Below are positions 1-29,550 of a stretch of DNA of 34,092 nt, in pieces (the first letter of the stretch is position 1; the number at the start of each line of letters is the position of its first letter). The translations under genes were made by a program, and so were the position numbers. Location: NCBI GenBank assembly GCA_023146115.1, contig JAGLCS010000057.1:1-34092 (forward strand), in the 5' to 3' direction. Source of the DNA: Abyssibacter sp. (GTDB taxonomy: Bacteria; Pseudomonadota; Gammaproteobacteria; Nevskiales; OUC007). The notes below the pieces were generated by a model. The model had not been told where the DNA came from. It saw only the letters and a program-made list of their open reading frames with translations, and did not search any database.

Positions 1-1662
1 GGATTTGCCGCATGGACGTTCGTCCCCGCGGCGATCCGCCTGTTTCAGATACAGCCGACCATGTGGCCCCCCATGGAGTCCAGGCTTGTTGCAGGCGCAA
101 ATCGTGTCGCCGCGTTTGTCATCGCACATGACAAGACGGTGGTGAGAACGGGTGTTGTCGCGTTGGTGGTGCTGACCATCGGCGCCCTGCTGGTCGAGCC
201 CGGCGCGCGCTACATTCGGGACCTGCCTCGCACGCACCCGGAGCGACAAGCCTATGAGTCAATTTCGGCACTGTTCGGTGGCGCCAACACGTTCCAGATC
301 GATATCGAAGGCGCCGGTCAGGATGCGATTCTGCTCCCGGAGATCCTAAGCGCTGTCGATCGTCTGCAAACCTGGCTAGAGGCGCGCCCGGACGTCGGCT
401 CGGCAATCTCATTGCCGGACTATGTCAAGAGCATTCACCAAGCTCTGCAATCCGGCGAACCCGCTCAGTGGAAGATCCCCGACGACTCCTCACTGATCAA
501 GCAAATGATGATCATCGCGGCTCCGCGAGACATCTATCAGTACACGGATCTCAACTTTTCGCGGCTCCACATCCGGATCAACACACCAGTTGTGGAGACG
601 CAGGCCCTGCGACAACTTTTCGATGAAATCGAACATGAGTTGGCCTCCTTCCCGCCAGGGTTGAATCCGACACTCAGCGGAAACGCAGTCCAGCTCACCT
701 CGACGATTGAATCACTCACCGGCGGGCAAATTCGATCACTCTCACTGGCGGCCGTTGCGATCTTCATCGTGCTAGCGCTCTTGTTCACGTCAGTGAAAGT
801 GGCGCTGATGGCCATGCTGCCAAACCTGCTTCCCGTGATCGCCTACTTTGCCCTGCTCGGCTTTACTGGCACGCCGTTGGGGCCGACCACTGCGCTGGTC
901 GCTTGCATCGTACTGGGCATCGCCGTCGATGACACTTTGCATCTGTTGGTTCGCTTCAACCAACGTGCACGTGCCTGTGGAAACGAGCGCCAGGCATCGC
1001 GTGAGTCGATTGCCCAGGTGATTCGACCCATCACGCTGACAACTGCAGCCGTTTCGCTCGGCTTTCTGACGATGCTGTCGAGCCCGTTTCACAGCCAGGC
1101 CGTATTCGGGCTACTGTCCGCGGTCACCTTGGTCCTGGCCTGGGCCTCGGACTTGCTGCTGGCACCCGCAGTCTCCGCGCGCGCGTCGATCGTCACCCTT
1201 TGGGATGTCATGCGGATCGACCTCGGCGCCAACCCGCAGCAAACCATTCCGTTCATGCAAGGCATGAGCAACCGGCAGGCACGACTATTGGCGCTAGCGG
1301 GTGAATTCAGAACGCTCAAGGCCGGACAAATGCTGACTTACAAGGGTGAGGAACGGCGGGAGTTGTACGTCATTATTGATGGCGAATTCGACGCTTGGCT
1401 AATCCGCCGGGCCGGCGAACGCGTCGACCTGGCCCGCCTCACTCGCGGCGCCTGCATCGGCGAAAGCGGCCTGTTCATGCAGCGGCGGACAGCGAATGTA
1501 TCCGCCAGAACCGACAGCCGCGTGCTGGTCATCAAGCTGGACGCCCTGGAGCGGCTCCGCCGTCGCCACTCGAAGGTCAGCGCCTTGGCCTATCGCAATC
1601 TCAACCTGATTCAGGCCGAGCGTATGGCACGAACCACCGATCGGGTATACGACGGATCATGA
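1..1662 (+). CDS. RND-superfamily exporter (MMPL/COG1033 type), C-terminal half, with fused cyclic-nucleotide-binding domain; 5' partial
   Basis: The frame is open from base 1 (the first codons read GFAAWTFVPAAIRL), so the ATG at 61 is internal and the gene starts outside the window. What remains is the second half of an RND-type transporter: a membrane segment at about 145-210, a large periplasmic loop, then a five-segment membrane block at about 735-1190. That block contains GIAVDD at about 916-933, the acidic pair typical of COG1033 RND proteins. From about 1270 the chain continues into a cNMP-binding domain. It has the phosphate-binding cassette G-E-S-G-L-F followed by R-T-A at about 1458-1496, so the nucleotide pocket looks intact. 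RND exporters use proton motive force to move lipids or hydrophobic compounds; the substrate here is unknown. The cNMP domain suggests gating by a cyclic nucleotide (inference). The CRP-like gene starts 76 bases downstream. Confidence 0.85.
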   Translation, partial: GFAAWTFVPAAIRLFQIQPTMWPPMESRLVAGANRVAAFVIAHDKTVVRTGVVALVVLTIGALLVEPGARYIRDLPRTHPERQAYESISALFGGANTFQIDIEGAGQDAILLPEILSAVDRLQTWLEARPDVGSAISLPDYVKSIHQALQSGEPAQWKIPDDSSLIKQMMIIAAPRDIYQYTDLNFSRLHIRINTPVVETQALRQLFDEIEHELASFPPGLNPTLSGNAVQLTSTIESLTGGQIRSLSLAAVAIFIVLALLFTSVKVALMAMLPNLLPVIAYFALLGFTGTPLGPTTALVACIVLGIAVDDTLHLLVRFNQRARACGNERQASRESIAQVIRPITLTTAAVSLGFLTMLSSPFHSQAVFGLLSAVTLVLAWASDLLLAPAVSARASIVTLWDVMRIDLGANPQQTIPFMQGMSNRQARLLALAGEFRTLKAGQMLTYKGEERRELYVIIDGEFDAWLIRRAGERVDLARLTRGACIGESGLFMQRRTANVSARTDSRVLVIKLDALERLRRRHSKVSALAYRNLNLIQAERMARTTDRVYDGS

Positions 1663-1738
1663 CCGTATTGGTGCGCGGTTTCGGCGAAACTGCCGGTGTA
1701 GAATCTCGTTCTCGCCGTGTGGGAGTCCGCCAATCGAA

Positions 1739-2359
1739 TTGTCATCAGAGGTTCAGCAGCTCCTGCTGCAGGCGGGCCACCGTCGACGATACTGCGCCGG
1801 CGATACGATCGTGTCGGAGACGTCCGATTCACGCAGCCTGTTCTGGCTGGCCAATGGACAGGCCGCCATCCGGCTTAGCAACTGGCGTGGTCACGAAGTG
1901 ATCCTCGGCTATGTCGACACCGGAGGGTTCTTCGGCGAGATGGGCCTGTTCCCGAATGATGCATCACGGTTCGCGACCGTGGTTGCCACCCGTGAATGCC
2001 TCGCCTTGGAAATCGGCTACGACCGGTTTCGGCGGATTGCCAACGCAAACGACAGCTTGTGGCTCGCCCTGATCGCACAAGTGTCGTACCGGCTGCGAGA
2101 TGCCAATCGGCGTCTCGTGGATACCGGCCTGCTGCGCGTGCAAGAACGGTTGCTCGCAATCCTTCACCAACTAGCAGCCACGAATCCGGTCGAGCGCGCA
2201 GCCGACGGCCCTATGCTCAAGATCACCCGCCAGGAACTCGGCCACCTGGTGGGTTGCACGCGAGAAGTGGCTGGACGAACGCTGAAGCAGCTGGAAGAAA
2301 ACGGTGCGGTCCGCTTGGATGGACACTCAATCATCGTCCTAGACCGTCAGGACCCTTGA
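1739..2359 (+). CDS. CRP/FNR-family transcriptional regulator (CRP-like)
   Basis: This 206-residue protein has an N-terminal cNMP-binding beta-roll (about 15-105), a dimerisation helix (about 108-140) and a C-terminal winged helix (about 150-202). The phosphate cassette G66-E67 with R77 matches the E. coli CRP residues that hold the cyclic phosphate. The recognition helix CTREVAGR keeps R175, E176 and R180, equivalent to the three CRP residues that read TGTGA half-sites. At the adenine-contacting Thr127-Ser128 of CRP this protein has Ala122-Asn123, so ligand preference may differ. No ATG lies upstream in frame. The TTG at 1739, preceded by GGGAG at 1721-1725, is the only reasonable start. The SLOG-like gene begins 22 bases downstream, so the genes are probably co-transcribed. 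The FNR alternative is unlikely because there is no N-terminal cysteine cluster. Confidence 0.88.
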   Translation: MSSEVQQLLLQAGHRRRYCAGDTIVSETSDSRSLFWLANGQAAIRLSNWRGHEVILGYVDTGGFFGEMGLFPNDASRFATVVATRECLALEIGYDRFRRIANANDSLWLALIAQVSYRLRDANRRLVDTGLLRVQERLLAILHQLAATNPVERAADGPMLKITRQELGHLVGCTREVAGRTLKQLEENGAVRLDGHSIIVLDRQDP

Positions 2360-2381
2360 CCGCGGCTCGTCTCGCAATTTG

Positions 2382-3032
2382 ATGGAAGCACCAGACAGCC
2401 TGGTGATCGGAGTGACCGGTCACCTGAACCTTGATGCCGCAGCACGCGACACAACCGCTGAAGCAGTCACCGAACAATTGCGTGGCGATGCCGGCTTCAT
2501 GGCAGCGTCGGCCGTTCGAATCGTCGCCGGCCTGGCGCCAGGCGCCGATTTGCTTGTGATCTCTACCATCTCACGACTCTGCGCCATGCTCGGCAAGCGC
2601 TGTCACCTCCACGTGCTGATGACGACAGATGTCGACAACATGCTCCAGGCTTGGCGTCAACGGACCGCCGAGCTGAACGACCCGCCGTCACCGGCGGCGC
2701 AAAAGCAGGTCTCAATGCAGATTGCATACTGGCTGCAGCAGGCAGCCACGGTCGAACACGTTCACCGGCGCACGGATACCAACTACAGCAGCCATGAGTG
2801 CCTGGCGGCCCGGCTTGCCCTGGAACCGGATCTGCTGGTCGCCATCATCCGGCCCAGCCATCCGGGTCAACGTGGCGGGGCACAATCCGTGCTCGCATGG
2901 CGCAATCACCCGGACCGGATTCCACCATCGCTGAGCGGCGTTTCATCACGCCTCAAGAGTGGGGCTCGCAGCCTGGCCATCGACCCGGATGACGGGAGCT
3001 CGACCCTGATCGAGCATTCATCCGGCAGCTGA
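2382..3032 (+). CDS. SLOG-like Rossmann nucleotide-sensor protein
   Basis: A 216-residue soluble protein with no signal peptide or membrane segment. Near the N-terminus it has VIGVTGHLNL, then VAGLAPGADLL, and later a segment reading EPDLLVAII followed by a GG-containing loop and VLAWRNHPDRIP. This is the pattern of SLOG domains of the GxTGH class: a Rossmann-like fold that binds or processes nucleotide-derived ligands and is common in bacterial conflict and signalling operons. The family role is established knowledge; the domain call is by motif only. The ATG at 2382 is preferred over the TTG immediately before it. It lies 22 bases after the CRP-like gene and upstream of the cyclase gene, an arrangement I recognise as recurring for TPR-S cyclases. 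The last 30 residues are low in pattern and may be a tail. No catalytic activity can be assigned. Confidence 0.65.
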   Translation: MEAPDSLVIGVTGHLNLDAAARDTTAEAVTEQLRGDAGFMAASAVRIVAGLAPGADLLVISTISRLCAMLGKRCHLHVLMTTDVDNMLQAWRQRTAELNDPPSPAAQKQVSMQIAYWLQQAATVEHVHRRTDTNYSSHECLAARLALEPDLLVAIIRPSHPGQRGGAQSVLAWRNHPDRIPPSLSGVSSRLKSGARSLAIDPDDGSSTLIEHSSGS

Positions 3033-3194
3033 ACCCCCGCCCGCAGCGCGGCCAGAACGCCTTCACGACCACGCGCTATGAGGTCGCTGCTATGCTTCCG
3101 ATGCACAGCGCGGGGCGGCCAGCAGATCGGGGAACTGCCGAACCGCAGCTCGGGAAGAAGGCGCACTGCCGCCGACACAGGGATGCGATCGCGA

Positions 3195-4823
3195 ATGGCG
3201 AGATCGGACTTAATCCGTGAGATTCGTCGTGCTTTGGCGCGAGGGAATGCGCTCACGGCTCATGATCTGGCGACACGAGCGCTGGAAACCGATGACAGCG
3301 TTGGCCTGCGTTACTGGTATCTACTGAGCCTCGCGGCAGCCGGGAGTGTTCGCAGAGCGCTGACACAGTTTGAAGCACTGGCACCAGCGCCGGCAGAGCG
3401 AAACGAGGACTGGCTGGCGCTGCCAGCACGACTGCACAAGGATCTCGCATTTCGAGACGTTGATCCCACCTTCAACCTATCTCGTGCGGCCAAGCTCTAT
3501 GCCGACGCCTTCGCCCGGACGGGCGGTGCTTTCTCGGGCATTAACGCGGCGACGACCTCGCTCTTGTCCGGTCGAGTCACCACCGCGCGGCAGTATGCGC
3601 GGGCGGTACTCGCGCTTCCCAGCGCCCCTCAGTCCGGCGATCTTGACCGCTACTACACGCTGGCGACCACAGCCGAAGCCGCACTGATTCTCGGTGACCT
3701 CGAAACCGCTAAAACGGCACTGAACACCGCCAATACGCTGATCCGCGACCAGCTGGCAACACGGGCAAGAACGCGTCAGCAACTACAACGCATTGTTGAA
3801 TACTCCGGCCTTGATGAGCGTTGTTTACGCCTGCTAGAGCTTCCGGATGTCTATCGGCTAAAACTGGATCGACCCACTCCCGACAGAGGCGAACACTTGG
3901 AGGCGTTCCGCCTGCAGGACGCCCCAGTGACCACGTCCGCCCCACGAACGCCACGCGGCTGGTCAACACTCAGCGTCATCGCTGACTTGGGCGCAAAGAT
4001 CCATATGGTGATTCCCGGCGAGGTGGACCGATACCTTGCGACGGCCATGGCTGTTGCCCCCACAGGAGTGTCCCCAGAACAGATCATCGACGCCTGCGAG
4101 CAGATCACACCGATTTCCGGTTTTCTCCCAGAGGAAGATCGTTGGCTGACCGAATGCAGCGATCGGCTTTGCGCCGGTTTGGCAGCGCTGAACGGTCAAC
4201 GCCTGGGGCAGCCCGTGCGCCGACTCTTCGCGACACAGTCCGGCCACTGGCTGACCGAGAACCCCAAGACCAGCCATGCTCCGGCTGGACCGGACCATCG
4301 AGCGCAGGTCGGCCTCGTGTTCACCGACTTTGTAGGCTTCAGCACATTCTCGGAAATCGAAACCGTTACGTACTGGACCGACGTGGTGCCCAAGCTGGCC
4401 GCGGCACTCAAAACGAGCAACGCCAACATACTCCTTCAGCAAACCTGGGGCGATGCGCTGCATATCGTCACCGATGACGCGGACAGCGCGTCGCGTGTGG
4501 CCCTGCTCCTGATCGACGAGGTCCAGACCTTACGCGGACAATGCCACGGCAAGCTGCGGGATCTGGAAATACGGGTGGGGGTCCACTTCGCGCCTGCTCA
4601 TCACGGTTTCGATGCCATTGCCGAGGCCTCCACGTATTTTGGCAGTCAGCTGTCATTCGCAGCCCGAGTCGAGCCGGTGACCCCGCCGGGCATGGCCTAT
4701 GTCACTGAGCACTGCGCAGCTGAACTGGCACTGAGCTCAGCGGCGGCCGGCCGTCTTGAATACGCAGGTGAAATAGCGCTTTCGAAGCAATACGGCCGCT
4801 TCCGCCTCTACGCGCTCAACTGA
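3195..4823 (+). CDS. TPR-S-like sensor fused to a class III nucleotide cyclase
   Basis: About 542 residues. The N-terminal two thirds is an alpha-helical repeat region with the GINAATTSLLSG segment typical of TPR-S (DUF4071/TRAFs-binding) domains. The C-terminal domain (about 370-540) is a class III adenylyl/guanylyl cyclase. The metal-binding aspartates are D378 in FTDFVGFS and D420 in WGDAL, and the catalytic arginine lies in SFAARVEPVTPPG. Two usual residues are changed: the base-selecting Lys is Gln (QTWGD), and the Asn that precedes the arginine is Ser. The product is therefore a cyclic nucleotide of uncertain base. The frame is open from 3078, but the extra 39 residues are arginine-rich and unlike the family. 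ATG 3195, with AGGG at 3179-3182, is my choice; ATG 3183 is possible. It is the last gene of the cNMP cluster and has no membrane segment. Confidence 0.82.
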   Translation: MARSDLIREIRRALARGNALTAHDLATRALETDDSVGLRYWYLLSLAAAGSVRRALTQFEALAPAPAERNEDWLALPARLHKDLAFRDVDPTFNLSRAAKLYADAFARTGGAFSGINAATTSLLSGRVTTARQYARAVLALPSAPQSGDLDRYYTLATTAEAALILGDLETAKTALNTANTLIRDQLATRARTRQQLQRIVEYSGLDERCLRLLELPDVYRLKLDRPTPDRGEHLEAFRLQDAPVTTSAPRTPRGWSTLSVIADLGAKIHMVIPGEVDRYLATAMAVAPTGVSPEQIIDACEQITPISGFLPEEDRWLTECSDRLCAGLAALNGQRLGQPVRRLFATQSGHWLTENPKTSHAPAGPDHRAQVGLVFTDFVGFSTFSEIETVTYWTDVVPKLAAALKTSNANILLQQTWGDALHIVTDDADSASRVALLLIDEVQTLRGQCHGKLRDLEIRVGVHFAPAHHGFDAIAEASTYFGSQLSFAARVEPVTPPGMAYVTEHCAAELALSSAAAGRLEYAGEIALSKQYGRFRLYALN

Positions 4824-4947: not shown

Positions 4948-5322
4948 TTGGAACCGAAATACTCCGAGCACCCCGCCATGTTCAAGAACAACCCGATGGG
5001 CTTCATTCTGGCCGTGCTGCTAGTGCCGCTGGCGATCGGTGTCCTCATCCTGCTCTGGTGGTATCTGAAATGTAAGTCCACCAAGCTGGAGTTCGTGGGC
5101 AATGACATCGTGCTGGAAAAGGGTCTGCTCAGTAAGGACCGCACCGAGCTAAATGCGGAGACCGTACGGACGGTGAATGTGTACCAGTCGTTGTTTGACC
5201 GGATGTTCGGCGTGGGTCGCATTTCGATCTACACCGCCGGTGATGTCCCAGAAGTGGAGGTCTCCGGCATTCCGCGTCCGCATGATTTCCGTGATCTGAT
5301 CAAGCAGCAGCAGGCAGATTGA
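4948..5322 (+). CDS. Bacterial PH-domain (bPH2/DUF304-type) membrane protein
   Basis: A 124-residue protein with one N-terminal membrane helix (FILAVLLVPLAIGVLILLWWYL, roughly residues 19-40) followed by a compact beta-rich domain. The pattern of that domain (TKLEFVGNDIVLEKGLLSKDRTE, then VRTVNVYQS and FGVGRISIYTAG) is the bacterial pleckstrin-like DUF304 fold. Such proteins sit at the inner membrane with the PH domain in the cytoplasm; their ligands are generally unknown. TTG 4948 is preferred because AGGAC at 4936-4940 lies seven bases before it. ATG 4978 is the alternative and keeps both domains. The stop overlaps the region where the next small membrane protein begins, so the two are probably translated together. 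Confidence 0.8.
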   Translation: MEPKYSEHPAMFKNNPMGFILAVLLVPLAIGVLILLWWYLKCKSTKLEFVGNDIVLEKGLLSKDRTELNAETVRTVNVYQSLFDRMFGVGRISIYTAGDVPEVEVSGIPRPHDFRDLIKQQQAD

Positions 5323-5324
5323 TC

Positions 5325-5639
5325 ATGGTGGGCGACATGGAACAACAGGATCGCCGCGAGGCACGGCTGGTGGTCATCGCGCTCGGCGTGTTGGTGCTGG
5401 TCGGCCTGATTGCCGCGTTGATCGCCCTGCCCGCGCTGGCGGATTTTCATTCCACGCAACTGGCACCGGGTCTGGGCCTCAAGGGCGCGGCCATCGCGTC
5501 CTTTGTCGTCACGTTCGTCACCTTTGTGATTTTTGCGGTGGCGGCCGGTGACGGTCTGATCGGCGAATTACAGTTCATGCTGCTCGGTTTCTTCGCGTTC
5601 TTTCTGATTCTCTGGCTGCTGATTGCCTGGATACTCTGA
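5325..5639 (+). CDS. Small integral membrane protein, unknown function
   Basis: About 104 residues with three predicted hydrophobic segments: VVIALGVLVLVGLIAALIAL, AAIASFVVTFVTFVIFAVAAG and MLLGFFAFFLILWLLIAWIL. The charged N-terminus (MEQQDRREAR) is probably cytoplasmic. I do not recognise a named family. The ATG at 5325 begins two bases after the stop of the PH-domain gene, and a second ATG at 5337 is equally acceptable. It lies between the PH-domain gene and the acetyltransferase and ends four bases before the latter starts, so the three probably form one transcription unit. Confidence 0.7.
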   Translation: MVGDMEQQDRREARLVVIALGVLVLVGLIAALIALPALADFHSTQLAPGLGLKGAAIASFVVTFVTFVIFAVAAGDGLIGELQFMLLGFFAFFLILWLLIAWIL

Positions 5640-7995: not shown

Positions 7996-9830
7996 CCCCC
8001 GTGCCAGCAGACAGTCGCTACGTCCCGTCTACGCAGATCCGGATCGGGATTGTCGCGACATTCACGCTGCAGTTCCTGCTGCTGTACCACCTGAACGTGA
8101 CCTGGAGTGATGCGCCCAGCCGCTGGCTGGTCGCGAGCTACACGGTGGTCACGGCAATGCCGATCTGGCTGGCCATCACGGTATCCGATGCGCGTCGATG
8201 GGCAGCCTGGGTCGTGGCCCTGACAACCACGGCGCTATTGGCGGCACTGGGCTGGTTTGCCGGAGGACGCTGCGCCCCTGCGCTGGACGTGGAGTGCGGC
8301 CCGGTGCTCGCGCCCTATGTGCTGCTACTTTCGCCGGCGCTTCTGGTCGCGGGCGTGTTCGTCCGCAGCGCGTTGGTCTGCGGGTCGGGGTGGCGAAGCT
8401 GGCCCGACTATCACGTGCTTTATCGCGAGGCTTGGCAAGTCGGTCTTGCCCTGGTCCACGCGGCTCTGGTCACGGGTTTGGCCTGGCTGTTGCTCGCAAT
8501 CAGCGGCCAGCTGTTCCACCTGCTCGGAATCGACGTAGTGCGCGCTCTGCTGGGCGACGAACGCTTCGTCTACGGCTTTACCGGGTTTGCGTTGGGCATG
8601 GGCGTCGCGGTCTGGCTGTCCCTGGTCCGCGCGGTGGAATCCGTGCGTCAGATCATCCTCGGCATGGCGCATTTGCTGATGCCGCTCGCCTCGGTCATCG
8701 TCATTGGTTTCACGCTCGCGGTGCTGATCACCGGCCCTGCCAATCTGTTCGAAGCCTATGAAGCAAGCTGGTGGATGCTTGGCATCGCAACGGTTGTCAT
8801 CGTGCTTTACAACGGCGTGTTTCAGGATGGCGAGACTGCGCCCCTCTCGCGCGGCTGGTCGCAGGTGGAGTTCTGGATTCGCCACGGCGCGGTCAGCGCG
8901 TTGGTGCCGATCCTGGGACTGGTCGCCTACGGTCTGGGTTCGCGGGTGCTGGCCTACGGCTGGACGGTTCCCCGGGTGTACGGCGCGGTGTTCGCGCTGT
9001 TCATCGCGTTGTACGTTATCGGTTATCTGACCGCGCTGCTCTGCCGTCGCATTCAGGCGGGCGTGCAGCTCACCAACCGACTGCTGGCCGTTGGATTTGT
9101 GGTGATCGTGGTCGTCCTGCTATCCCCGCTGATGACCCCCTCCGGCATTGCCGCGAATAGCCAGCTCTCGCGACTGGAGTCCGGCGCCACCCAGCTGGAT
9201 GATGTCGACTTTCACTACTTGCGGCACCGATCGGGCATGGCCGGCTACCGAGCCTGGGAATCCCTGGGAAACGACCCACGCGTTCGCCAGAACGAAGCAC
9301 TACTCGCCCGATGGCAACATCCGACGCGCCGCCCGTTGCAAACGAGTGCCGCTTCGGACCACGAACTTGCGTCGCTTTACTCGACCTGGGTCGGCGAGGT
9401 TCAGCCGCCACAAGGCTTGTTGGAATCACAGGTTTTCCGTCAGGCAGCGGCGCGCTGCGTCGAGCAAAACTGCTGGTTACGCCCGGCGACGATTCCATCC
9501 TCGCCGCCGACCGAAATCTGGATTCTGCTGAGACACGACGATGCTAACGAGTCTGAGCGAGCGTTGGTCAGAGGCGAGATCTTTCAGCGCGCGCTCGCGC
9601 AGGACCGAACCTGGCAGCGCGCTGGCCACGTCAGTTCAACGGGGCCGATACCGTATGACGCGCTGCTAACCGCTGTTGAGCACCCAGCTGCCACGACGGT
9701 CCCGAAGAATTGGCCAGATCTGATGCTTGGAGGTCTGCGGCTGGAGACCGAGCCGTACCGGCCACCCAGCGGCAGGGGCGGCGATCACGATCCAGCCGCG
9801 TCAACGCCTGCCGCGGACCCTCAGCGGTAA
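7992..9830 (+). CDS. DUF4153-type polytopic membrane protein
   Basis: About 612 residues. Roughly the first 390 contain many hydrophobic helices, starting with IGIVATFTLQFLLLYHL and ending near AVGFVVIVVVLLSPLMTPSG. The region GATQ onward (about 210 residues) is hydrophilic and probably soluble. The block LVYGFTGFALGMGVAVWLSLVRAV and the segment WSQVEFWIRHGAVSALVPILGLVAYGLGSRVLAYGWT are characteristic of the DUF4153 family, whose function is not established. The frame is open from 7941, but ATG 7992 overlaps the VOC stop as ATGA and is preferred. The 3' end overlaps the end of the sulfotransferase gene on the opposite strand by ten bases. Confidence 0.85.
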   Translation: MTPVPADSRYVPSTQIRIGIVATFTLQFLLLYHLNVTWSDAPSRWLVASYTVVTAMPIWLAITVSDARRWAAWVVALTTTALLAALGWFAGGRCAPALDVECGPVLAPYVLLLSPALLVAGVFVRSALVCGSGWRSWPDYHVLYREAWQVGLALVHAALVTGLAWLLLAISGQLFHLLGIDVVRALLGDERFVYGFTGFALGMGVAVWLSLVRAVESVRQIILGMAHLLMPLASVIVIGFTLAVLITGPANLFEAYEASWWMLGIATVVIVLYNGVFQDGETAPLSRGWSQVEFWIRHGAVSALVPILGLVAYGLGSRVLAYGWTVPRVYGAVFALFIALYVIGYLTALLCRRIQAGVQLTNRLLAVGFVVIVVVLLSPLMTPSGIAANSQLSRLESGATQLDDVDFHYLRHRSGMAGYRAWESLGNDPRVRQNEALLARWQHPTRRPLQTSAASDHELASLYSTWVGEVQPPQGLLESQVFRQAAARCVEQNCWLRPATIPSSPPTEIWILLRHDDANESERALVRGEIFQRALAQDRTWQRAGHVSSTGPIPYDALLTAVEHPAATTVPKNWPDLMLGGLRLETEPYRPPSGRGGDHDPAASTPAADPQR

Positions 9831-10741: not shown

Positions 10742-12314
10742 GCTCGGACCCCGGCGGGTTCGCACCGCGCCAGATCTCGCAGCCGCCGCGTGGGTTGTGA
10801 ACATACTCCCACTTGCCGTTGCGCTTGATCGCCCGGTCCGGCGCCAGCACGTTCGAGGTGGCGATGAAGACACCGTAAGGCGTCGACAGAATCTGGCGAA
10901 TGCCCCAGTTGCACTCGTTATCGAACCCGTTGCGGGTCATGCAGTCCCAGTGAATGCCATCCGCTGTGGACCACACATCACAGCCACCCATGTTGTTGAC
11001 GAACCAGTCCACGCCCATCTTGGCGATGCGCCGCTGTCCCTCTTCGCCCCATTTATGAATCGGGCAGTACGGCAGTAGCTGCGCCCAGCTGAAGGTGCCG
11101 ACATATAGGCGGCCGGCGTGCACACCCATGCGCCACACATAGCCGTTGAAAAACTTGTTGAAACCTGGCCGGAAGCCGGACAGCGGATACCGCGCGCCCT
11201 GCGGCGTGATCCTCGATTCTCCGACGATCAGCTCCCAGGAATCATCCGGATGAATGCGGATGACCTCGGCCGCCGCAGGCCCCACGTTCAGCTTGCGGTG
11301 ATAGCCGCCGTTGACGATGCCGGAACCGACATAAAGTGCGCCCTTGAACTCGCAAAGACTCACTGCGACCTCATTCAGCGGTCCACGACCGGCGCCATGC
11401 GAGATGACACGCTTCCAGTCATAAGGCGGATCACCGCGGGCGCTGGTCTTCCAGATCTCAAAGCCATTCCGGGCGTTTACCGTGCCGGCGTAGAGATGGT
11501 TGTTGAACGCCGCCATCTCGAACACGGTGAGGTTTGCCGGATCGCCAAAGCCCTGGCTCGACACCGCGCGCCAACCCGTGCGCGGATCCGCGGTCTCGAA
11601 GATAGCGGGCCGGCCACCGACGCACTCCTGGGACTGCCGATCGCCGGTGGTTGAGCCGGTCGGTGAGGTGTAGAGCCGACCGTTGAAGACCTGCATGGTG
11701 CGGAACGAGCGGACCTGATCGCCCCAGTTCGGACCGGGCAGTTCTTCGAAATGAATGCCGTCTTCGGTGCGCATGACGGTCGGCCGAGGCGCCTTGCGCG
11801 GCGCCCAGGTGGCGATGTAGAGCACAGGCTCGTCGTCGCTCGTGCCCTGAAACACCGCCATGCCGCGGTAACCGATAAACCGCGGCACATCGCTGCCGTC
11901 GTCCCCTTTCACCCAGGGGGCACGGTAGGCGCAAATCCAGCCCTCGTCCGAGGCCGGATCATAGGACCAGATTTCCGCCCGGCGATCGAGATCGTAGATG
12001 TCCTTGGGCGGCGTCACCGGCCAGGGATCCAACGGCGGCAACGGATCGTTGTGGGCGAGCATCTGGAACGTCGCCCGCGTCGTACCAACGTACAGCCTGC
12101 CCTTGAACCAGGCCATGCTGTGCGGATAGTTGTTGTAGCCATCGCCGAAGCCGTTCTCGGAGACGAGCTTGAAGTGCTCGCCGCCCAGGGCATGGGGCTC
12201 CGGCTCGTCCAGAGACAATGCCTCGGCCCCCGGCGGCCATACCGGCGTCGGGATGATCAGGTCGGGATCGACGTCAGCGTCGGCGTCGACTTTGTTTCTG
12301 GCTAGGGAATCCAA
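10734..12314 (-). CDS. Seven-bladed beta-propeller-like protein, function unknown
   Basis: A 526-residue protein with no recognisable signal peptide or membrane helix. Seven copies of an LYVGT-like strand occur near residues 74, 165, 214, 274, 327, 403 and 482. Most are followed by an xIW or xVW strand, and often by a G-x-x-W turn (for example GFEIWKT, GCDVWST, GCEIWRG). The regular count suggests a seven-bladed propeller. I do not recognise a named family. Propellers act as enzymes or as binding scaffolds; neither can be chosen here. The start is a TTG that overlaps the end of the HlyD-fusion gene by 13 bases, with GAGG about seven bases upstream. No ATG occurs in frame before residue 67. 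Tight overlap on both sides indicates that it belongs to the same operon as the HlyD fusion and the sulfotransferase. Confidence 0.75.
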   Translation of the reverse strand: MDSLARNKVDADADVDPDLIIPTPVWPPGAEALSLDEPEPHALGGEHFKLVSENGFGDGYNNYPHSMAWFKGRLYVGTTRATFQMLAHNDPLPPLDPWPVTPPKDIYDLDRRAEIWSYDPASDEGWICAYRAPWVKGDDGSDVPRFIGYRGMAVFQGTSDDEPVLYIATWAPRKAPRPTVMRTEDGIHFEELPGPNWGDQVRSFRTMQVFNGRLYTSPTGSTTGDRQSQECVGGRPAIFETADPRTGWRAVSSQGFGDPANLTVFEMAAFNNHLYAGTVNARNGFEIWKTSARGDPPYDWKRVISHGAGRGPLNEVAVSLCEFKGALYVGSGIVNGGYHRKLNVGPAAAEVIRIHPDDSWELIVGESRITPQGARYPLSGFRPGFNKFFNGYVWRMGVHAGRLYVGTFSWAQLLPYCPIHKWGEEGQRRIAKMGVDWFVNNMGGCDVWSTADGIHWDCMTRNGFDNECNWGIRQILSTPYGVFIATSNVLAPDRAIKRNGKWEYVHNPRGGCEIWRGANPPGSEHA

Positions 12315-14653
12315 CTCCAGACCTCGATCATGAAGAAGCGGGCCAAGCCACGGGTGAAGGCCAGTCCTGCTGGTTGCGTGTCGCCTTCGACCTTCGCGTG
12401 TCCGGTCATTTCAGGCCGGAGCCGACCGTCGGCATTCTCGATTTCCATCTGCACGCGCACGACGCGACCGTATTCGCTGACTTCCGCGTTGGGTGCGATG
12501 CCGGCCACCGTGCCAACAAAGCTCACGCCAGGATACGCCCAGGCCTTGGCGGACGCCGGCGCGCCAACCTCGACGTCGCCGATATCGTTCTGGGGGATTT
12601 TGATCTCTGCCAGAACCTTTCCGGTTTCCTCGACGCTGAGCAGCAGGTCGCCACGAGCCAGATAGGCACCCTGGGCGAAGCGTAGATCTTCCGAGACGAC
12701 ACGACCGGCGCGAGGCGCCTTGATGTCGGTGTACTCGAGCTGTTGCCGCGCGTAGGCCAGTGTCGCCTTCTCGGCAGATATCGATGCCTTGAGCGCCGTG
12801 ATCTCCTCATCGGACGAGCCGGCCCGGACGACATCCAGCGAGTTCTTCGCCTCGGCAAGGCGTTCGCGGTCCAGATCCGCCTGCGCCTGCGCCTGATTCG
12901 CCACCTGACCGGTCGCCGCGCCGCGCTGGTAGGCGGAGTCCAACCGCTCCGCTTCCCGTTTGCTGGAATCGTATCGCCGCTGCGCCGTGATCACGCGTTG
13001 TTCTGCCAGCGCGATCTCCTCGGGCTCGGCGCCGCGCTCGGCCAAGGCCAGTTCAGCCTGGAGGCGGGCCAGGCGAGCTTCGCTGGTAGCCACCCGGGCG
13101 CGCTCCTCGTCGTCGGATAACCGCGCGAGCAATTGGCCCGGCTCCACCCGCTGCCCTTCCTGCACCAGCACCTCTCGCACCTCCCCGGCGATCAGCGCCC
13201 GAACGTCCGAACGCTCATTGGGCAGGATCTTGAAATCCCCGGTTGGCTCATAGGTGTACGGAATCAGCGCGAGCAGTAGCAGCACGGCGATACCGATACC
13301 CCACTTGATCACGGTGGTGCCGCGCTTCTTGCGACGTCTCGCGGCCAACTCCGGATTTCTCGCTTCCATTTCTTGCGCCAATTTATTGCGCGCCCGTGTT
13401 CGTTTCATTGGATTCCACATGGCAACCCCGCAAAGGACGAGGAACAAGACAACACCCAGGCCGGCCCACTCGCGTTCGAGCCACACACCAACCAGGTGGA
13501 ACAACACCCACGCGACGACCCCCATCCAGGCGACGACAGCCAAGGCGTACAGACGAATGACCGGCGTGGATACGCCCGTCGGTTTCAGACGGCGCCAGAT
13601 TCGGCCCCGGCCCAAAATGGAAGCGACCGCGACATCGCGCAGATCTGGTGTGTCCAGCCGCGTGGCCAGTAACTGATAGCCCTCATGCCGCGACATGGGA
13701 TTGAGCCGCAGCAGAAACACCCACCCTGACAGCACGGCGACGCCGGCATAGAGCAAGGGTAGATGGGATGCGGACTGGCGGCTGACAAACCAGCCCAGCG
13801 TTGCCAGCACCAGCAGCGAAAGCATGGCCACCAGCGACGACCCGAGCACGGCCATGCGATCGGTTGTCGCGAAACGTTGGTCGTGATTCGCGATCACCGG
13901 CGACACATCCGCGTAAAAGCGAGGTATCACCCGCAACATAAAGGTGATGCCAAACGCCGGCAGATTGCCAACCCGGCGCAGATACTCGGCAGCGCGAGCA
14001 ATCTGCCCCAGCAGATTCACCGAGAAAAAACCCAGCGCCGCGATCTGGATGATGGCCCAGGGCCCGACCAACCGTTGCAGGTCCACCCAGACCCCCACCC
14101 GATTGTTGTAGACACCGAGCCCCAGGCAAAACAGCACCACGCCCAGCGCAGCCATGCGCCAGCGGGCGTGCATCGGCCAGTTCAGTAGCCGGCCGGCCCA
14201 CAGCAACCAGCGCGTGGGCAGGTGAATGGCGATGTCCGGTGTGCGGGCTTCGCGCAGGGCATGCTGACGCGCCAGTCGGGACTTGGCCAATGGCTCCGCT
14301 TCGCGATTCGCCCGCTCGGCATTCCATTCGCCCGGCGTCGCTTCGGCGAGGTCGGAATCATTGGCCGCGGTTTGCCATGCAGCCGTCTCGGCTTCGAGCA
14401 GCCCCGCACGGTCCAACTCGCTCAGAAACCGCTTGGCCGCTGCGATATCGGTATCCGTACCCTGCGCCCTGGCCACCTCCACGGCCTCGGCCAGCGAACG
14501 CGTCCCGTCAAACAGCGACGCCAGGCGAAACTCGGTTTCGTCGAAGCGATAGACCCGACCGTCATCCTGGCTCGTAAGCAGGATGATCTCGGCATAGCGC
14601 GTGGAAATACGCGACTGACGCCGATAGACCAGTTGTGGGTGGGCCGAACTCAT
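12302..14653 (-). CDS. PqqD-like / inactive M50 (site-2-protease-like) / HlyD membrane-fusion protein
   Basis: A 783-residue fusion. Residues about 10-95 resemble PqqD/RRE winged-helix domains (SRISTRYAEIILL, YRFDETEF, LASLFDG). About 150-420 is a polytopic membrane region like the M50 domains found in peptidase-HlyD fusions, including VIPRFYADVSPVI and LRLNPMSRHEGYQLL. The catalytic HExxH is replaced by NLLGQ at 213-217, and the third zinc ligand Asp of the NPLLRxDGY motif is Glu324, so proteolysis is unlikely. About 450-465 is another membrane helix. The rest is a periplasmic adaptor with a lipoyl-like half (LIAGEVREVLVQEGQRVEPGQ), a long alpha-hairpin (about 515-640), the second lipoyl half (IKAPRAGRVVSE) and beta-barrel. 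It starts 4 bases after the TolC-like gene ends. No ABC ATPase lies nearby. Confidence 0.8.
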   Translation of the reverse strand: MSSAHPQLVYRRQSRISTRYAEIILLTSQDDGRVYRFDETEFRLASLFDGTRSLAEAVEVARAQGTDTDIAAAKRFLSELDRAGLLEAETAAWQTAANDSDLAEATPGEWNAERANREAEPLAKSRLARQHALREARTPDIAIHLPTRWLLWAGRLLNWPMHARWRMAALGVVLFCLGLGVYNNRVGVWVDLQRLVGPWAIIQIAALGFFSVNLLGQIARAAEYLRRVGNLPAFGITFMLRVIPRFYADVSPVIANHDQRFATTDRMAVLGSSLVAMLSLLVLATLGWFVSRQSASHLPLLYAGVAVLSGWVFLLRLNPMSRHEGYQLLATRLDTPDLRDVAVASILGRGRIWRRLKPTGVSTPVIRLYALAVVAWMGVVAWVLFHLVGVWLEREWAGLGVVLFLVLCGVAMWNPMKRTRARNKLAQEMEARNPELAARRRKKRGTTVIKWGIGIAVLLLLALIPYTYEPTGDFKILPNERSDVRALIAGEVREVLVQEGQRVEPGQLLARLSDDEERARVATSEARLARLQAELALAERGAEPEEIALAEQRVITAQRRYDSSKREAERLDSAYQRGAATGQVANQAQAQADLDRERLAEAKNSLDVVRAGSSDEEITALKASISAEKATLAYARQQLEYTDIKAPRAGRVVSEDLRFAQGAYLARGDLLLSVEETGKVLAEIKIPQNDIGDVEVGAPASAKAWAYPGVSFVGTVAGIAPNAEVSEYGRVVRVQMEIENADGRLRPEMTGHAKVEGDTQPAGLAFTRGLARFFMIEVWSWIP

Positions 14654-14657
14654 GACC

Positions 14658-16031
14658 TTAGTCGTCCAGCATCCGGTTCACGGACATCAGATCGGGCGTG
14701 CCCAGGGTTCCGGCCGCGGCCTTGAGCCGCAGGCTGTTGAGCAGATAACCGTGCACCGCGCGGGTGAGAGCCCGTTCGGCATCGAAACGCTCGCGCAGCG
14801 CCTGGACGAGATCGACTTCTGTCCTCGTGCCGGCAAAAACCCCGCCTTCGGTGGCTTCCACGGCGTCATAGGTGGCCGACCGGGCCGTGCGCAAGGCTGC
14901 GACCTGTTCGCGCCCGAGCAGCAAGGCGGAATGCGCGCTGGTCGCCTGGAATTCGGCCTGCCGCTGGGCACGGGCCTGGCGGGCCAGGGCCTGCTCATAG
15001 CGGGCGACAGCGGCCGTGGTTCGGGCGCGTGTGGCACCGCCGTCAAACACCGGCAGCCGCAGTTCCAGACCGATCAAATCCTCGGAATCCTCCCGCTCGC
15101 CGGATACGCCGCCCGAGTTGTCGATGTAGTCACGCTGGGCGATCAAATCCAAGGTCGGCAGTCTGGCGGCGCGTTCGATGTCCACCGCACGCGAGGCCAC
15201 CTCGGATTCCAGCCGTGTGGCCACCAGTAGCGGGTTGCTCTCCCGTGCCTGTTGTACCCAGGCTTCGCGATCCGTCGTCGACAGCTCGGGCAGATACCCG
15301 TAACTGCGGATGGCGGACAGCACCATGGTCGGTTCACCGGTGATTAGCGCCAGCTCCGCACGGCGGGTCAGCAGAGCCTGCTCCGCGCGCAAGACCCGCG
15401 CGCGGGCCAGCTCGCGCTGGGCATCCGCTTCGGAGCGACCCAACTCGGTGGCGATTTCCAGCTGTGCCTGCTCGCGCACCTGATCCGCACGGTCCGAGAT
15501 AGCGCGCAACTCCGCCTTGGCGAATTCGAGATCCTGCTCGGCGTCCAGCGCAGCGAAATACGCATCCGCCACGCGCAGCATCAGATCGACCTCGGCTGCG
15601 TTCAGGCGTGCGGCAGCAGCGGCCACCCGCAGCGACGCGGCGTCGCGCTGTCGCCAACGGTCCAGCCGGAGTATTGGCTGTCGAAGTTGGATGGAGTACC
15701 CGAAGGCTTCGAAATCATCGGATCGATCAATGTCCTGAAGCCCGAAATAATCACCGACCACCTCGCGATGATTCGCAGTCGCGCGCCCGGCCACGGTGAG
15801 CACCGGGTGGTAGCCCGCTCGCGCAAGGTCACCGTCGGCCAGCACCTCGGCGTAACGTGCCCGCGCTTCGGCCCAGGTCGGGTCCTGTTCCATGGCGTGG
15901 GCGAAGGCGTGGGTGAGCCCTTCTGCCTGAACGATGGGACTGACCAGAGCCAGCGCTGCGCCGAGCAGACCTGCCCGAAGTTCAGCCCAATAAATCCACT
16001 TCCCTGTCACGTGCTCCCCAGTGGCTTCCAA
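14658..16031 (-). CDS. TolC-family outer-membrane efflux/secretion channel
   Basis: About 457 residues, normal for TolC-like proteins. It has a signal peptide (AELRAGLLGAALALVSPIVQA) and two repeats of the family pattern: AFAHAMEQDPTWAEARARYAEVLADGDLARAGYHPVL near the start, and AWVQQARESNPLLVATRLESEVASRAVDIERAARLPTLDL in the middle. Each is followed by long helices and a strand segment (GYSIQLRQPIL, GLELRLPVFDGG). It forms the outer-membrane exit duct for the adaptor encoded directly downstream. The start is either TTG 16031 or GTG 16010 (GGGGAG three bases upstream); both retain the signal peptide. A possible small gene overlaps its 5' end. Confidence 0.9.
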   Translation of the reverse strand: MEATGEHVTGKWIYWAELRAGLLGAALALVSPIVQAEGLTHAFAHAMEQDPTWAEARARYAEVLADGDLARAGYHPVLTVAGRATANHREVVGDYFGLQDIDRSDDFEAFGYSIQLRQPILRLDRWRQRDAASLRVAAAAARLNAAEVDLMLRVADAYFAALDAEQDLEFAKAELRAISDRADQVREQAQLEIATELGRSEADAQRELARARVLRAEQALLTRRAELALITGEPTMVLSAIRSYGYLPELSTTDREAWVQQARESNPLLVATRLESEVASRAVDIERAARLPTLDLIAQRDYIDNSGGVSGEREDSEDLIGLELRLPVFDGGATRARTTAAVARYEQALARQARAQRQAEFQATSAHSALLLGREQVAALRTARSATYDAVEATEGGVFAGTRTEVDLVQALRERFDAERALTRAVHGYLLNSLRLKAAAGTLGTPDLMSVNRMLDD

Positions 16032-23149: not shown

Positions 23150-26100
23150 TCAGGCGACCTTGGCCTCGCGGGTGGAGAAATCGCGCCCCAGGACCATGTA
23201 CATGCCGGGTACGACAAACAACGTGAACAGCGTGCCGATGGTCATGCCGGAGGCGATCACGACGCCGATCGCAAAGCGGGACGCTGCCCCCGGCCCGCTG
23301 GCGGTGATCAGCGGCACCACAGCGATCACCAGCGCCGCGGTGGTCATCAACACGGGCCGCAGCCGAATGGCCGCTGCCTTTTCGATGGCGGTACGCTTGT
23401 CGAAGCCATCCCGCGTCTGCAACTGATTCGCAAACTCCACGATCAGGATGCCATGCTTGGAAATCACTCCGATGAGGGTGACCAGTCCGACCTGGGAATA
23501 GATGTTCAGCGACGTGAGTCCGAGGCTAATGAAGATCAACGCACCGCAAATCGACATCGGTACCGTAACGAGCATGATAATCGGGTCGACGAAGCTCTCG
23601 AACTGCGCTGCCAGAACCAGATAGATGATGACGAGTGCAAAAAAGAACGTTGCCACGAGCGCACTACCCTCAGCTTTAAACTGGCGAGACTGGCCCGCAT
23701 AGTCGACGGTATAGCTTTCTGGAAGAATCTCTTCCGCCGTTTTCTCCATAAAGCTCAAGATGTCTCCCAACGCAATACCCGGAACCGGAACACCCTGGAT
23801 GGTCGCAGCATTGAGTTGCTGAAAGCGCTTAAGCATCCGAGGCCGGACGACCTCGTTCAAGGACACCACAGTCGATAGCGGAACCATCTCGCCAGCAGGC
23901 GTGCGGACATGGTAGGTGCCCAGTTGATCCGGATTCAGCCTGTCCTCACGGGCAACCTGCGGAATCACTTTGTAGCTGCGTCCTTGAATCGAGAAGCGAT
24001 TGACGTAACCACCGGACAACATCGCCGCAAGGTTCGTCCCAATGTCCTGCATCGAGAGGCCCATCGCGGCAACCTTCTCACGGTCAATCTCAACCTCTAC
24101 CTGCGGCTTATCGATCCGCAGGTCAGATTCAACAAAAATGAACATCCCGGACTCGCGGACGCGTTGAAGAAATTCCTGGGTGACGTCGTAGATCGCACGC
24201 GATTCGTCGGTGGACCCAATGATGAACTGAACCGGGAGTCCGTTGCTGCCGCCGGGCAATGGTGGCGGTATAAATGCAGCGGTATCCAATCCGGCTATCT
24301 GCGAGATCACACCCTGCATCTCCTGCTGGACTTGTTTGTTGCTCTTGTCCCGGTCGCTCCAAGCATGCAACGTCGCTCCGGTAATCGCCGAATTGACCGC
24401 TGGACCCGAAAACCCGACGCCGTTGATCTGAAAGATATTCTCGACGCTCTCATTCTCACGGATCTTGCCGGCCATGTACTCAGTCCACATGGTGGTTTGG
24501 TCAATAGTGGAATTGGGAGCACCCGTCGACAACATGAACACGATGCCCTGGTCTTCCTCGGGTGCAAGTTCGCTATTTGCTGACACAAACAAGAAATAAC
24601 AAGAAATCAGCACTACGCCACCGAATACCAAAATTACGGGCACCGTGTTGAGTGCCCCATGCAAACGACGCTCATAGCCGTTCTCAAGTTTTGTAAACTG
24701 GCGATCCAGAAAGCCCGCGAATCCGCTCTGATCATTGCCGTTATTCGCCTTGAGCAGCTTGGCGCACATCATCGGGGATAACGTAAGTGCCACGATCCCC
24801 GAGATCAGAACGGCACCGGCGAGCGTAAAGGCGAACTCGATGAACAACGTACCGGTCAGCCCACCGAGTAACCCGATTGGGGCGTAGACAGCCACCAGTG
24901 TGATGGTCATGGCCACGATAGGGCCACCTAACTCCCGCGCACCTACCAACGCGGCTTCTTTCGGTTCCATGCCGTCTTCGATATGACGGTGGATATTCTC
25001 GACAACGATGATGGCGTCATCCACCACCATGCCAATCGCGAGGACCAGCGCCAGCAAAGTGAGCAGGTTGATCGAGAACCCCATAACCAACATGACGAAA
25101 CCTGCGCCCAGCAGCGACAGCGGTACGGCGATCGCCGGGATGATCACGCTTCGGACACTGCCAAGGAAGAGAAAGATCACGACGATCACGATCACCATCG
25201 CCTCGATCAGCGTGGCCTGCACCTCGGAGATCGAATCCTCGATGTAGCGCGTGGCGTCGTAGACGATCTCGGCTTCAAGGCCTTCTGGAATTTGCTCAAC
25301 GATTCTGGGAAAGAGTTCACGAACGTCCGCAATCACATCGAGCACGTTCGCGCCTGGTACCACGTTGATTCCGAAGAAGGTTGCCTTTTGCGAGTTGAAC
25401 TGAACATCGACGTCATAGCTTTCGGCGCCGAGGACAACTGACGCCACATCACCGAGCCGGATTAACGCGTCCCTCTCCTCCCTTACGACGAGATTCTTGA
25501 ACTCCTCAGCGGAATGCAGATCAGTCTCTGCGGTCAGATCAAACGAGATCATCGACCCCTTCGTCTGCCCAACGGCAGCCAGCACATTGTTTGCGCCCAA
25601 AGCCGCATATACATCAGCAGGCGTTACCCCCAGTCCCGCCATGCGTTCCGGCTGCATCCATATCCGCATAGCAAAGGTTCGTGCACCCAAGATCTCGGCC
25701 TTCTGTACACCCTGCACGGTCTGCAATTGGGGCTGCACCACGCGAGTGAGGTAATCCGTAATCTGATTGTTCTCCAGCACCTCCGAATAGAACGATATGT
25801 ACATCGTGGCCGTAGTCTCGCCAACCGTTAGATCGATGGTCGGATCTTCGGAGCCGCTCGGCAGATCAGCACGGATCTTGTTGACCTTAGAAGTGATCTG
25901 AGTGAGCGCCTCGTAGGCGTCGTAGTTCAGCTTCAGGTTGGCCTGGATCGTGGAGACGCCCTGCTGGCTGAATGACTGCAGATAGTCGATACCGTCGGCA
26001 CTAGCAATCTCTCGCTCCAACGGTGTCGTGATGAATCCCTGGACCAAGTCTGCATCCGCACCGGTGTATACCGTCGTCACGGTAATGACTGCATTCTCGG

Positions 26101-26218
26101 CCTGTGGGTATTCCTGCACGGTCAACGACTGGAACGCACGTAGCCCGACGATAGCGATCAGCAGGCTGACCACCGATGCCAACACGGGCCGGCGGATGAA
26201 AATATCGGTGAACGCCAT
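23150..26218 (-). CDS. RND multidrug efflux transporter, inner-membrane pump (AcrB/MexB-like HAE1 family)
   Basis: 1022 residues, the usual size. It begins with the canonical FTDIFIRRPVLASVVSLLI and has the family repeat of large periplasmic loops and 12 membrane helices. The proton relay is present: the aspartate pair in IGMVVDDAIIVVENIH (helix 4) and the lysine in GVISKHGILIVEFANQL (helix 10). VQEYPQAENAVITVTTVYTGADADLV is the typical porter-domain entry. It exports hydrophobic compounds from the periplasm or outer leaflet using the proton gradient, with the adaptor and TolC-like channel encoded just upstream. It follows the adaptor gene after nine bases. The substrate range cannot be read from sequence, so no gene symbol is given. 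Confidence 0.95.
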   Translation of the reverse strand: MAFTDIFIRRPVLASVVSLLIAIVGLRAFQSLTVQEYPQAENAVITVTTVYTGADADLVQGFITTPLEREIASADGIDYLQSFSQQGVSTIQANLKLNYDAYEALTQITSKVNKIRADLPSGSEDPTIDLTVGETTATMYISFYSEVLENNQITDYLTRVVQPQLQTVQGVQKAEILGARTFAMRIWMQPERMAGLGVTPADVYAALGANNVLAAVGQTKGSMISFDLTAETDLHSAEEFKNLVVREERDALIRLGDVASVVLGAESYDVDVQFNSQKATFFGINVVPGANVLDVIADVRELFPRIVEQIPEGLEAEIVYDATRYIEDSISEVQATLIEAMVIVIVVIFLFLGSVRSVIIPAIAVPLSLLGAGFVMLVMGFSINLLTLLALVLAIGMVVDDAIIVVENIHRHIEDGMEPKEAALVGARELGGPIVAMTITLVAVYAPIGLLGGLTGTLFIEFAFTLAGAVLISGIVALTLSPMMCAKLLKANNGNDQSGFAGFLDRQFTKLENGYERRLHGALNTVPVILVFGGVVLISCYFLFVSANSELAPEEDQGIVFMLSTGAPNSTIDQTTMWTEYMAGKIRENESVENIFQINGVGFSGPAVNSAITGATLHAWSDRDKSNKQVQQEMQGVISQIAGLDTAAFIPPPLPGGSNGLPVQFIIGSTDESRAIYDVTQEFLQRVRESGMFIFVESDLRIDKPQVEVEIDREKVAAMGLSMQDIGTNLAAMLSGGYVNRFSIQGRSYKVIPQVAREDRLNPDQLGTYHVRTPAGEMVPLSTVVSLNEVVRPRMLKRFQQLNAATIQGVPVPGIALGDILSFMEKTAEEILPESYTVDYAGQSRQFKAEGSALVATFFFALVIIYLVLAAQFESFVDPIIMLVTVPMSICGALIFISLGLTSLNIYSQVGLVTLIGVISKHGILIVEFANQLQTRDGFDKRTAIEKAAAIRLRPVLMTTAALVIAVVPLITASGPGAASRFAIGVVIASGMTIGTLFTLFVVPGMYMVLGRDFSTREAKVA

Positions 26219-26227
26219 ATCCGTCCC

Positions 26228-27358
26228 CTACTTGTTGGCCGGGTTGGGCTTAGGATTGTTGTCCGGAGTGACATCATTATTGATGTTCAGACGAGAACCG
26301 TTCCGAAGCTTGAGTTGACCAGAGGTGACGACCTGCGCGCCGGCATCTACACCCTCGAGTACCGAAACCTGGTCGCCTCGGCGATCCCCTATCTTCACGA
26401 AAACTCGTTCCGCAACCTTTGACCGGTTGCCGTCGTCCCCTGCGTCGCCGTCGGTCACGAGGTAGACCGAATCTCCGTAGGGGTTATACGAGATAGCCGT
26501 TGCCGGCAAGGTGATATGTTCCTCCACTTGAGGCATCACGACGTTGATGCGGGCGAACAGCCCGGGTCGCAGCTTGCGCGAAGCATTGTCAACACGGGCT
26601 TCCACCGCGAAATTGCGAGTCGCTTGTTCGACACTGGGCTCGACTGCAGTGATATGGCCGGTGAAAACCGTGTCGGACACGCTGTCGACCTGCATCCGCA
26701 CGATCTGTCCTGGCTCAACGTCATTGAGGCGCTGTTCTGGAAGCGTAAAGCTGACCAGCATCGGGTCGAGCTGTTGCAACGACACAATTCCCGTACCGGC
26801 ACCGGCATACTGTCCGATATCCACCTTGCGTATGCCGGCAACGCCATCGAAGGGGGCCTTGATGGCTTTCTTGTCGATGGTCGCCCGTTGGCTTTCAATT
26901 TGCGCTTCAAGCTGCGCAGCGGTGGCCTGCGCCGCATCTAGGTCGGCTTCGGCATTGGTGCCGCGGCGGCGAAGTTCATTCTGGCGCTTCAGTTCGGACC
27001 TCGCGAGACGAAGTTGAGCTTCCAGCGCCGCCAACTGCGCCAGATCGGTGCTGGTATCAAGCTGAATCAGTAGGTCCCCACGCCGAACCGATTGGCCAGA
27101 ATCAAAGTCAATGCTCTCGACCACTCCCGGCAACTCGGCCGAGACAACGACACCATTCACGGCCCGCAACGTACCAACAGCGGGAATCGTGGGCTCCCAA
27201 ACCGTTTTTTCAGCCGTTGTCGTGGTAACAGCCACCGGCGGCTGTTGCATGTTCTCGAAATATTTCGACATCTGGGCATTCATGAATGCCTTGAAGCCAA
27301 AAATGGCGCCGAACAGCACACCGAGTGCCAGTAGGACGATGACAAGTCGTTTGGTCAT
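26228..27358 (-). CDS. RND efflux periplasmic adaptor (membrane-fusion) protein
   Basis: 376 residues with an N-terminal signal anchor (LVIVLLALGVLFGAIFGFKAF). There follow the first lipoyl half (VVSAELPGVVESIDFDSGQSVRRGD), a short alpha-hairpin (about 115-165), the second lipoyl half (KAPFDGVAGIRKVDIGQYAG), the beta-barrel (MLVSFTLPEQRLNDVEPG) and the membrane-proximal domain. It bridges the inner-membrane pump and the outer-membrane channel. The start overlaps the stop of the TolC-like gene as ATGA, and the pump gene follows nine bases later, so the three components are made together. The C-terminal tail is Asn/Pro-rich (NINNDVTPDNNPKPNPANK). Confidence 0.94.
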   Translation of the reverse strand: MTKRLVIVLLALGVLFGAIFGFKAFMNAQMSKYFENMQQPPVAVTTTTAEKTVWEPTIPAVGTLRAVNGVVVSAELPGVVESIDFDSGQSVRRGDLLIQLDTSTDLAQLAALEAQLRLARSELKRQNELRRRGTNAEADLDAAQATAAQLEAQIESQRATIDKKAIKAPFDGVAGIRKVDIGQYAGAGTGIVSLQQLDPMLVSFTLPEQRLNDVEPGQIVRMQVDSVSDTVFTGHITAVEPSVEQATRNFAVEARVDNASRKLRPGLFARINVVMPQVEEHITLPATAISYNPYGDSVYLVTDGDAGDDGNRSKVAERVFVKIGDRRGDQVSVLEGVDAGAQVVTSGQLKLRNGSRLNINNDVTPDNNPKPNPANK

Positions 27359-29476: not shown

Positions 29477-29500
29477 GGGGTGATCGGCCGACGATGAGTC

Positions 29501-29550
29501 AATGAACTCTAGCCCATAAATGAACGGCATTCATTTTGCGCATAATGAAC
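29501..29550. promoter_or_regulatory. Likely TetR operator cluster
   Basis: AATGAA-CGGCA-TTCATT at 29519-29535 is a perfect inverted repeat that overlaps the -10 box of the efflux-operon promoter. The motif AATGAAC occurs three times in the same orientation, at 29501-29507, 29519-29525 and 29544-29550. Together they look like a repressor-binding region spanning the promoter core. Confidence 0.6.

Follow-up and report, generated by a model that had tools for sequence, protein, structure and literature searches.

Our analysis points to a Nevskiales signalling system, of which the first genes of the window would be one copy, in which an enzyme with SLOG, TPR-S and class III cyclase domains and a TIR protein form the core and relay a signal to a CRP-like transcription factor of a group that we call CRP-2. 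The window is the whole of contig C146, 34,092 bp long, in a draft genome from the order that contains Solimonas, Nevskia and Sinimarinibacterium. We put the probability of this reading at roughly 45%. Gene content, linkage, co-occurrence, folds and the conservation of catalytic residues are what we observe; from them we infer the trigger, the two messengers and each of the steps as follows. The TIR protein would respond to stress or to an invader by making an NAD-derived nucleotide, which the SLOG domain would bind as the SLOG domain of ThsA binds its ligand in Thoeris. Binding would turn on the cyclase via the TPR-S domain, and the cyclic nucleotide would act on CRP-2 to control transcription and, in this genome, possibly also on the cNMP-binding domain of the adjoining exporter. 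The sensing of a TIR product by SLOG is proposed by analogy with the TIR-to-SLOG logic of Thoeris, in which the cADPR isomers that a TIR protein produces are ligands of a SLOG domain (PMC10022894).

The locus consists of four genes on one strand (positions 1 to 4823) with intergenic gaps of 76, 22 and about 150 bp, an arrangement to which an earlier note on this DNA had drawn attention. Neither a sigma-70-like promoter nor an Rfam element was found in these gaps, and terminator-like sites between the genes were not more numerous than in shuffled sequence. About 125 bp downstream, on the strand of the cyclase, positions 4948 to 5639 encode a bPH_2 (bacterial PH-domain) protein and a small hydrophobic protein. 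The window also carries two export sets, one with a 783-aa HlyD-domain protein and an outer-membrane efflux gene (12302 to 16031) and one with an AcrB-type pump and HlyD, OEP and TetR genes (23150 to 29530).

A split SLOG/TPR-S/cyclase enzyme

Gene 3 (about 2382 to 3032, forward strand) has no Pfam match, and used alone as the query in a contig scan it matched nothing. Its AlphaFold model (pLDDT 91) has a Rossmann-like fold that Foldseek matches to YpsA, a founding member of the SLOG superfamily (2nx2, E=1.2e-5, the sole PDB match below 0.001); on this model and its relatives, gene 3 is assigned to that superfamily. Gene 4 (3183 to 4823, forward strand, with an alternative start at 3195; either is likelier than a start at 3078) encodes a TPR-S domain (about 3261 to 3554, from Pfam), a middle domain (about 3849 to 4235, from the AlphaFold model) and a class III cyclase domain (about 4299 to 4817, from Pfam and Foldseek). 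The Pfam matches are to TPR-S (2.3e-10; for PF20308, 41.4 bits against a gathering cut-off of 27.6) and Guanylate_cyc (1.4e-6). The model (pLDDT 88) shows the helices of the TPR part and a middle domain that is Rossmann-like; its cyclase fold matches CyaB, CyaC, Rv1900c and others in Foldseek. Both the SLOG-like protein and the TPR-S-like cyclase proposed in the earlier note are therefore borne out.

Since SLOG, TPR-S and cyclase form a single polypeptide of about 770 to 990 aa in most relatives, we regard genes 3 and 4 as one split enzyme. They share a frame and are parted by a stop and a spacer (3033 to 3182) that, in this frame, does not look like coding sequence in its codon-position composition and three-frame translation. 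The same division between SLOG and TPR-S-cyclase is seen in about five other relatives, with differing gaps. A recent frameshift is disfavored as its cause by the single frame, the spacer and the split relatives; an assembly error is possible.

Both metal-binding Asp residues of the cyclase (378 and 420), the catalytic Arg491 and the triphosphate-binding Lys531 are conserved, and with the fold they identify gene 4 as a class III nucleotidyl cyclase. The positions that we take to specify adenine through Lys and Asp are occupied by Gln416 and Thr480, and Trp418 stands where, we assume, an aliphatic residue is usual. The presumed transition-state Asn is replaced by Ser487, which counts against the reading that we prefer. 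Judged by these residues, the domain fits no known nucleotide-specificity signature. A few kilobases from the ordinary crp gene of this genome, G000 (contig C15, 13314 to 13898), lies another class III cyclase (9261 to 9770).

The TIR partner and the exporter

Of the 85 genomes of the order, 31 have the cyclase, leaving out a weak 32nd match in genome G056; it was absent from the three nearest relatives searched. A search with the TIR protein encoded on another contig of this genome, C160, likewise gave 31 genomes: 29 had both proteins, two the cyclase only, two the TIR only and 52 neither. Genomes are related, so these counts are not independent; shuffling of labels within genera equalled the observed concordance 2 times in 20,000. 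In about ten genomes the TIR and cyclase genes are neighbors. The Solimonas cyclase has a divergent TIR-WD40 gene at its side, and in Sinimarinibacterium CRP-2 and the cyclase have a TIR-TPR gene between them. The two are apart in Nevskia and in genomes G077 and G058, a second point against the preferred reading. The TIR Glu is conserved, the TIR matches the ThsB_TIR Pfam model, and the proteins consist of TIR plus TPR or WD40 only. This partner, although encoded outside the window, supports the conflict-type setting that had been suggested for the four genes.

Gene 1 (1 to 1662, forward strand) encodes the C-terminal 553 aa of an RND/MMPL-type exporter, as identified by Pfam (ACR_tran, 1.1e-8; MMPL, 2.7e-8), a cNMP scan of its own genome and its relatives, which are about 910 aa at full length. 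It is open at its 5' end and lacks the N terminus because the contig begins inside the gene. A C-terminal cNMP-binding domain (about 1309 to 1569; cNMP_binding, 1.4e-17) was found as previously claimed, and both the Gly-Glu and the Arg-Thr of its phosphate cassette can be read from the sequence. The end of contig C160 holds the sole truncated N-terminal piece in the genome that fits this exporter type, preceded upstream by a LolA-like gene and a divergent TIR-TPR gene. Contig C160 therefore very probably adjoins the start of the window, with about 350 bp missing between them, and probably carries the N terminus of the exporter; this join was made by elimination, which also weighs against the preferred reading.

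Beyond the genus of this genome, the cyclase and CRP of the window and the TIR on C160 each have their nearest relative in a single Sinimarinibacterium locus. In a second Sinimarinibacterium locus (L279; genome G048, contig C2:219001-236000), genes for a distantly related TPR-S cyclase, a CRP-like protein and a TIR stand side by side. Three more matches to the TIR family lie on contigs C97 and C2 of this genome, G000 (L274 and L275), one copy on C2 having an in-frame stop; its sister genomes have none.

The exporter is not a general partner of the cyclase. Members of its family occur in 57 of the 72 good genomes, irrespective of the cyclase, and a search out to about 9 kb around 27 related cyclase genes turned up none; we therefore conclude that the four genes do not travel together. 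This genome also has a paralog of the exporter with 47% identity. The gene usually upstream of the exporter is LolA-like (six of six loci in which the upstream gene could be read).

The earlier note had proposed that the four genes form a self-contained circuit, perhaps acting on the envelope, whose cyclic nucleotide would have two readers, the CRP-like factor and the exporter. The order and strand of the genes in the window are consistent with this, as are the Gly-Glu and Arg kept in the cassettes of both cNMP domains, the LolA-like gene that abuts the Sinimarinibacterium cyclase and an EmrAB-type efflux pair beside CRP-2 in Nevskia. We nevertheless consider it improbable, and the least probable of the alternatives weighed here. 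The exporter is widespread without the cyclase, no second locus with all four genes linked was found among the related cyclase loci examined, the TIR partner is not included, and the base contacts of the exporter C-helix cannot be aligned reliably to those of CRP-2. What stands of the proposed circuit is the pairing of synthesis with a transcriptional reader (below). The exporter as a regular partner and the conserved linkage expected in other genomes are not supported.

No phage homolog of the cyclase was found, its plasmid homologs are distant only, and it has no PADLOC match. Its chromosomal contexts are stable in several cases, including Nevskia. Together, the stable contexts and the lack of phage homologs and PADLOC matches argue against a typical mobile defense island and so leave room for stress signalling.

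A CRP-like factor and its possible ligand

Gene 2 (1739 to 2359, forward strand) encodes the CRP-like factor, assigned to CRP-2 by Pfam, profile search and an audit of its sites; its cNMP_binding (1.2e-17) and HTH_Crp domains confirm the regulator that had been predicted. Equivalents of Gly71, Glu72 and Arg82 of the cassette are kept and Phe replaces Ser83, so that the intact cassettes once claimed for both cNMP domains hold for the exporter and, in gene 2, for all of these but Ser83. A profile built from the window protein and five relatives scores 315 to 373 bits in nine genomes, with three of the nine members lying outside the profile; the remaining CRP matches of the order reach 231 bits at most. 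No other genome in a class sample of 369 genomes has a match at this level.

All nine genomes with CRP-2, out of 85, have the cyclase (hypergeometric 4.9e-5, uncorrected for relatedness, with about five lineages represented). The two are linked in three loci. In the window CRP-2 adjoins SLOG and cyclase, in Nevskiaceae Bin_35_3 CRP-2 and cyclase overlap by 4 bp, and in Sinimarinibacterium flocculans the TIR gene, a small ORF and the LolA-like gene lie between them. Where CRP-2 is unlinked to the cyclase (the L194-L199 set, from genomes G060, G059, G077, G015, G072 and G074), it lies in or beside ccm haem-export genes in Nevskia and adjoins an EmrAB-type efflux pair in G015, G072 and G074. A shared clade of the cyclase-linked CRPs was not robust after the addition of paralogs, and the group therefore rests on the gap in profile score and on co-occurrence; the window protein has a long branch and an unstable position in the tree. 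The best reading of CRP-2 is that it serves some of the genomes as a dedicated transcriptional reader. It is absent from 22 of the 31 genomes with the cyclase, a further argument against the preferred reading, and another output must therefore exist there.

All nine CRP-2 proteins have Asn at the position of Ser128 in Escherichia coli CRP (Asn123 in the window protein), a site that is Ser or Thr in the order's ordinary CRPs; the window copy has Ala at the position of Thr127. Asn at Ser128, with Leu at Thr127, also occurs in a second group of CRP paralogs from genomes that lack the cyclase (G052, G080 and G018; L158, L159 and L160).

These residues bear on two further explanations. One is an ordinary cAMP circuit, in which the cyclase makes cAMP, CRP-2 is a diverged Crp paralog and nothing serves immunity, the association with TIR having arisen incidentally as genes were lost and gained together. 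The closest PDB structures to gene 2, Vfr and CRP, would fit such a circuit, as would the class III fold of the cyclase, the presence in this genome of many cNMP domains and of class III cyclases at four further loci, and the stable contexts in Nevskia. It is unlikely, however, given the replacement of the adenine-specifying residues by Gln416 and Thr480, the Asn of CRP-2 and the strength of the co-occurrence with TIR.

The other is a Pycsar-like pyrimidine system: the product of the cyclase would be cUMP or cCMP, which CRP-2 would read through its Asn. PycTIR binds cUMP and reads uracil through an Asn, N143 (PMC11224242), which corresponds to the Asn of the nine CRP-2 proteins; a TIR is part of the system here too, and the cyclase is without canonical purine-specifying residues. 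On the other side, the cyclase differs from the specificity residues described for PycC and lacks a PADLOC match, the TIR has no cNMP domain, CRP paralogs from genomes that lack the cyclase carry the same Asn, and Phe replaces Ser83 in the CRP-2 of the window. We hold this explanation, too, to be doubtful.

Relation to known systems and meaning

The system that we favor resembles Thoeris (ThsB TIR and ThsA SIR2-SLOG) in pairing a TIR of the ThsB_TIR type with a SLOG protein. It differs in that its SLOG domain belongs to an enzyme with TPR-S and a cyclase; Pfam finds no SIR2 domain in genes 3 and 4, and hence no SLOG effector such as the SIR2-SLOG protein ThsA, and the system would act through a cyclic nucleotide and transcription rather than through NAD depletion. 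With Pycsar (PycC with PycTIR or PycTM) it shares a class III cyclase, a cNMP receptor with Asn and a TIR protein. However, the receptor is a DNA-binding CRP protein with an HTH and the TIR is a separate protein; the locus contains neither a TIR-cNMP fusion nor a cNMP effector with membrane segments, and the cyclase lacks the PycC signature when its residues are compared with those in PMC11224242.

The order of TPR-S and then cyclase is that of the PF20308 TPR-S cyclases of predicted conflict systems, to which the locus adds an N-terminal SLOG and a dedicated CRP. Distant TPR-S cyclases also have conflict-like neighbors: an nSTAND1-WD40 protein directly beside the one in genome G422, and TIR and DUF4231 genes close to the one in Caballeronia; the upstream neighbor of the Caballeronia cyclase was considered as a SLOG protein and is not one. 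Gene 2 has the CRP fold and the conserved cassette Glu and Arg of CRP and Vfr, but CRP-2 is a separate paralog group with Asn at the base-reading position and a linked cyclase without ATP-specifying residues. The locus is thus neither Pycsar nor Thoeris, though its workings may combine the two.

In its most specific form, which we consider unlikely, this would be a relay of two messengers: an NAD derivative from the TIR would act through SLOG to turn on a cyclase that makes a noncanonical, possibly pyrimidine, cyclic nucleotide, which a CRP-family factor would read via its Asn, changing transcription and efflux and not killing the cell. A relay of this kind was not described in the literature searched; papers beyond it on TPR-S and SLOG systems may predict a similar architecture.

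TIR, SLOG and cyclic-nucleotide signalling are familiar from separate immune systems of bacteria, in which the usual outcome is NAD depletion or membrane damage. The inheritance of this enzyme with an immune-type TIR across related bacteria suggests a signalling relay. If this is true, the locus would link TIR signalling to bacterial gene regulation by way of a class III cyclase gated by SLOG and a transcription factor dedicated to the system; it also puts directly to the test whether a regulator of the CRP family reads a nonpurine cyclic nucleotide.
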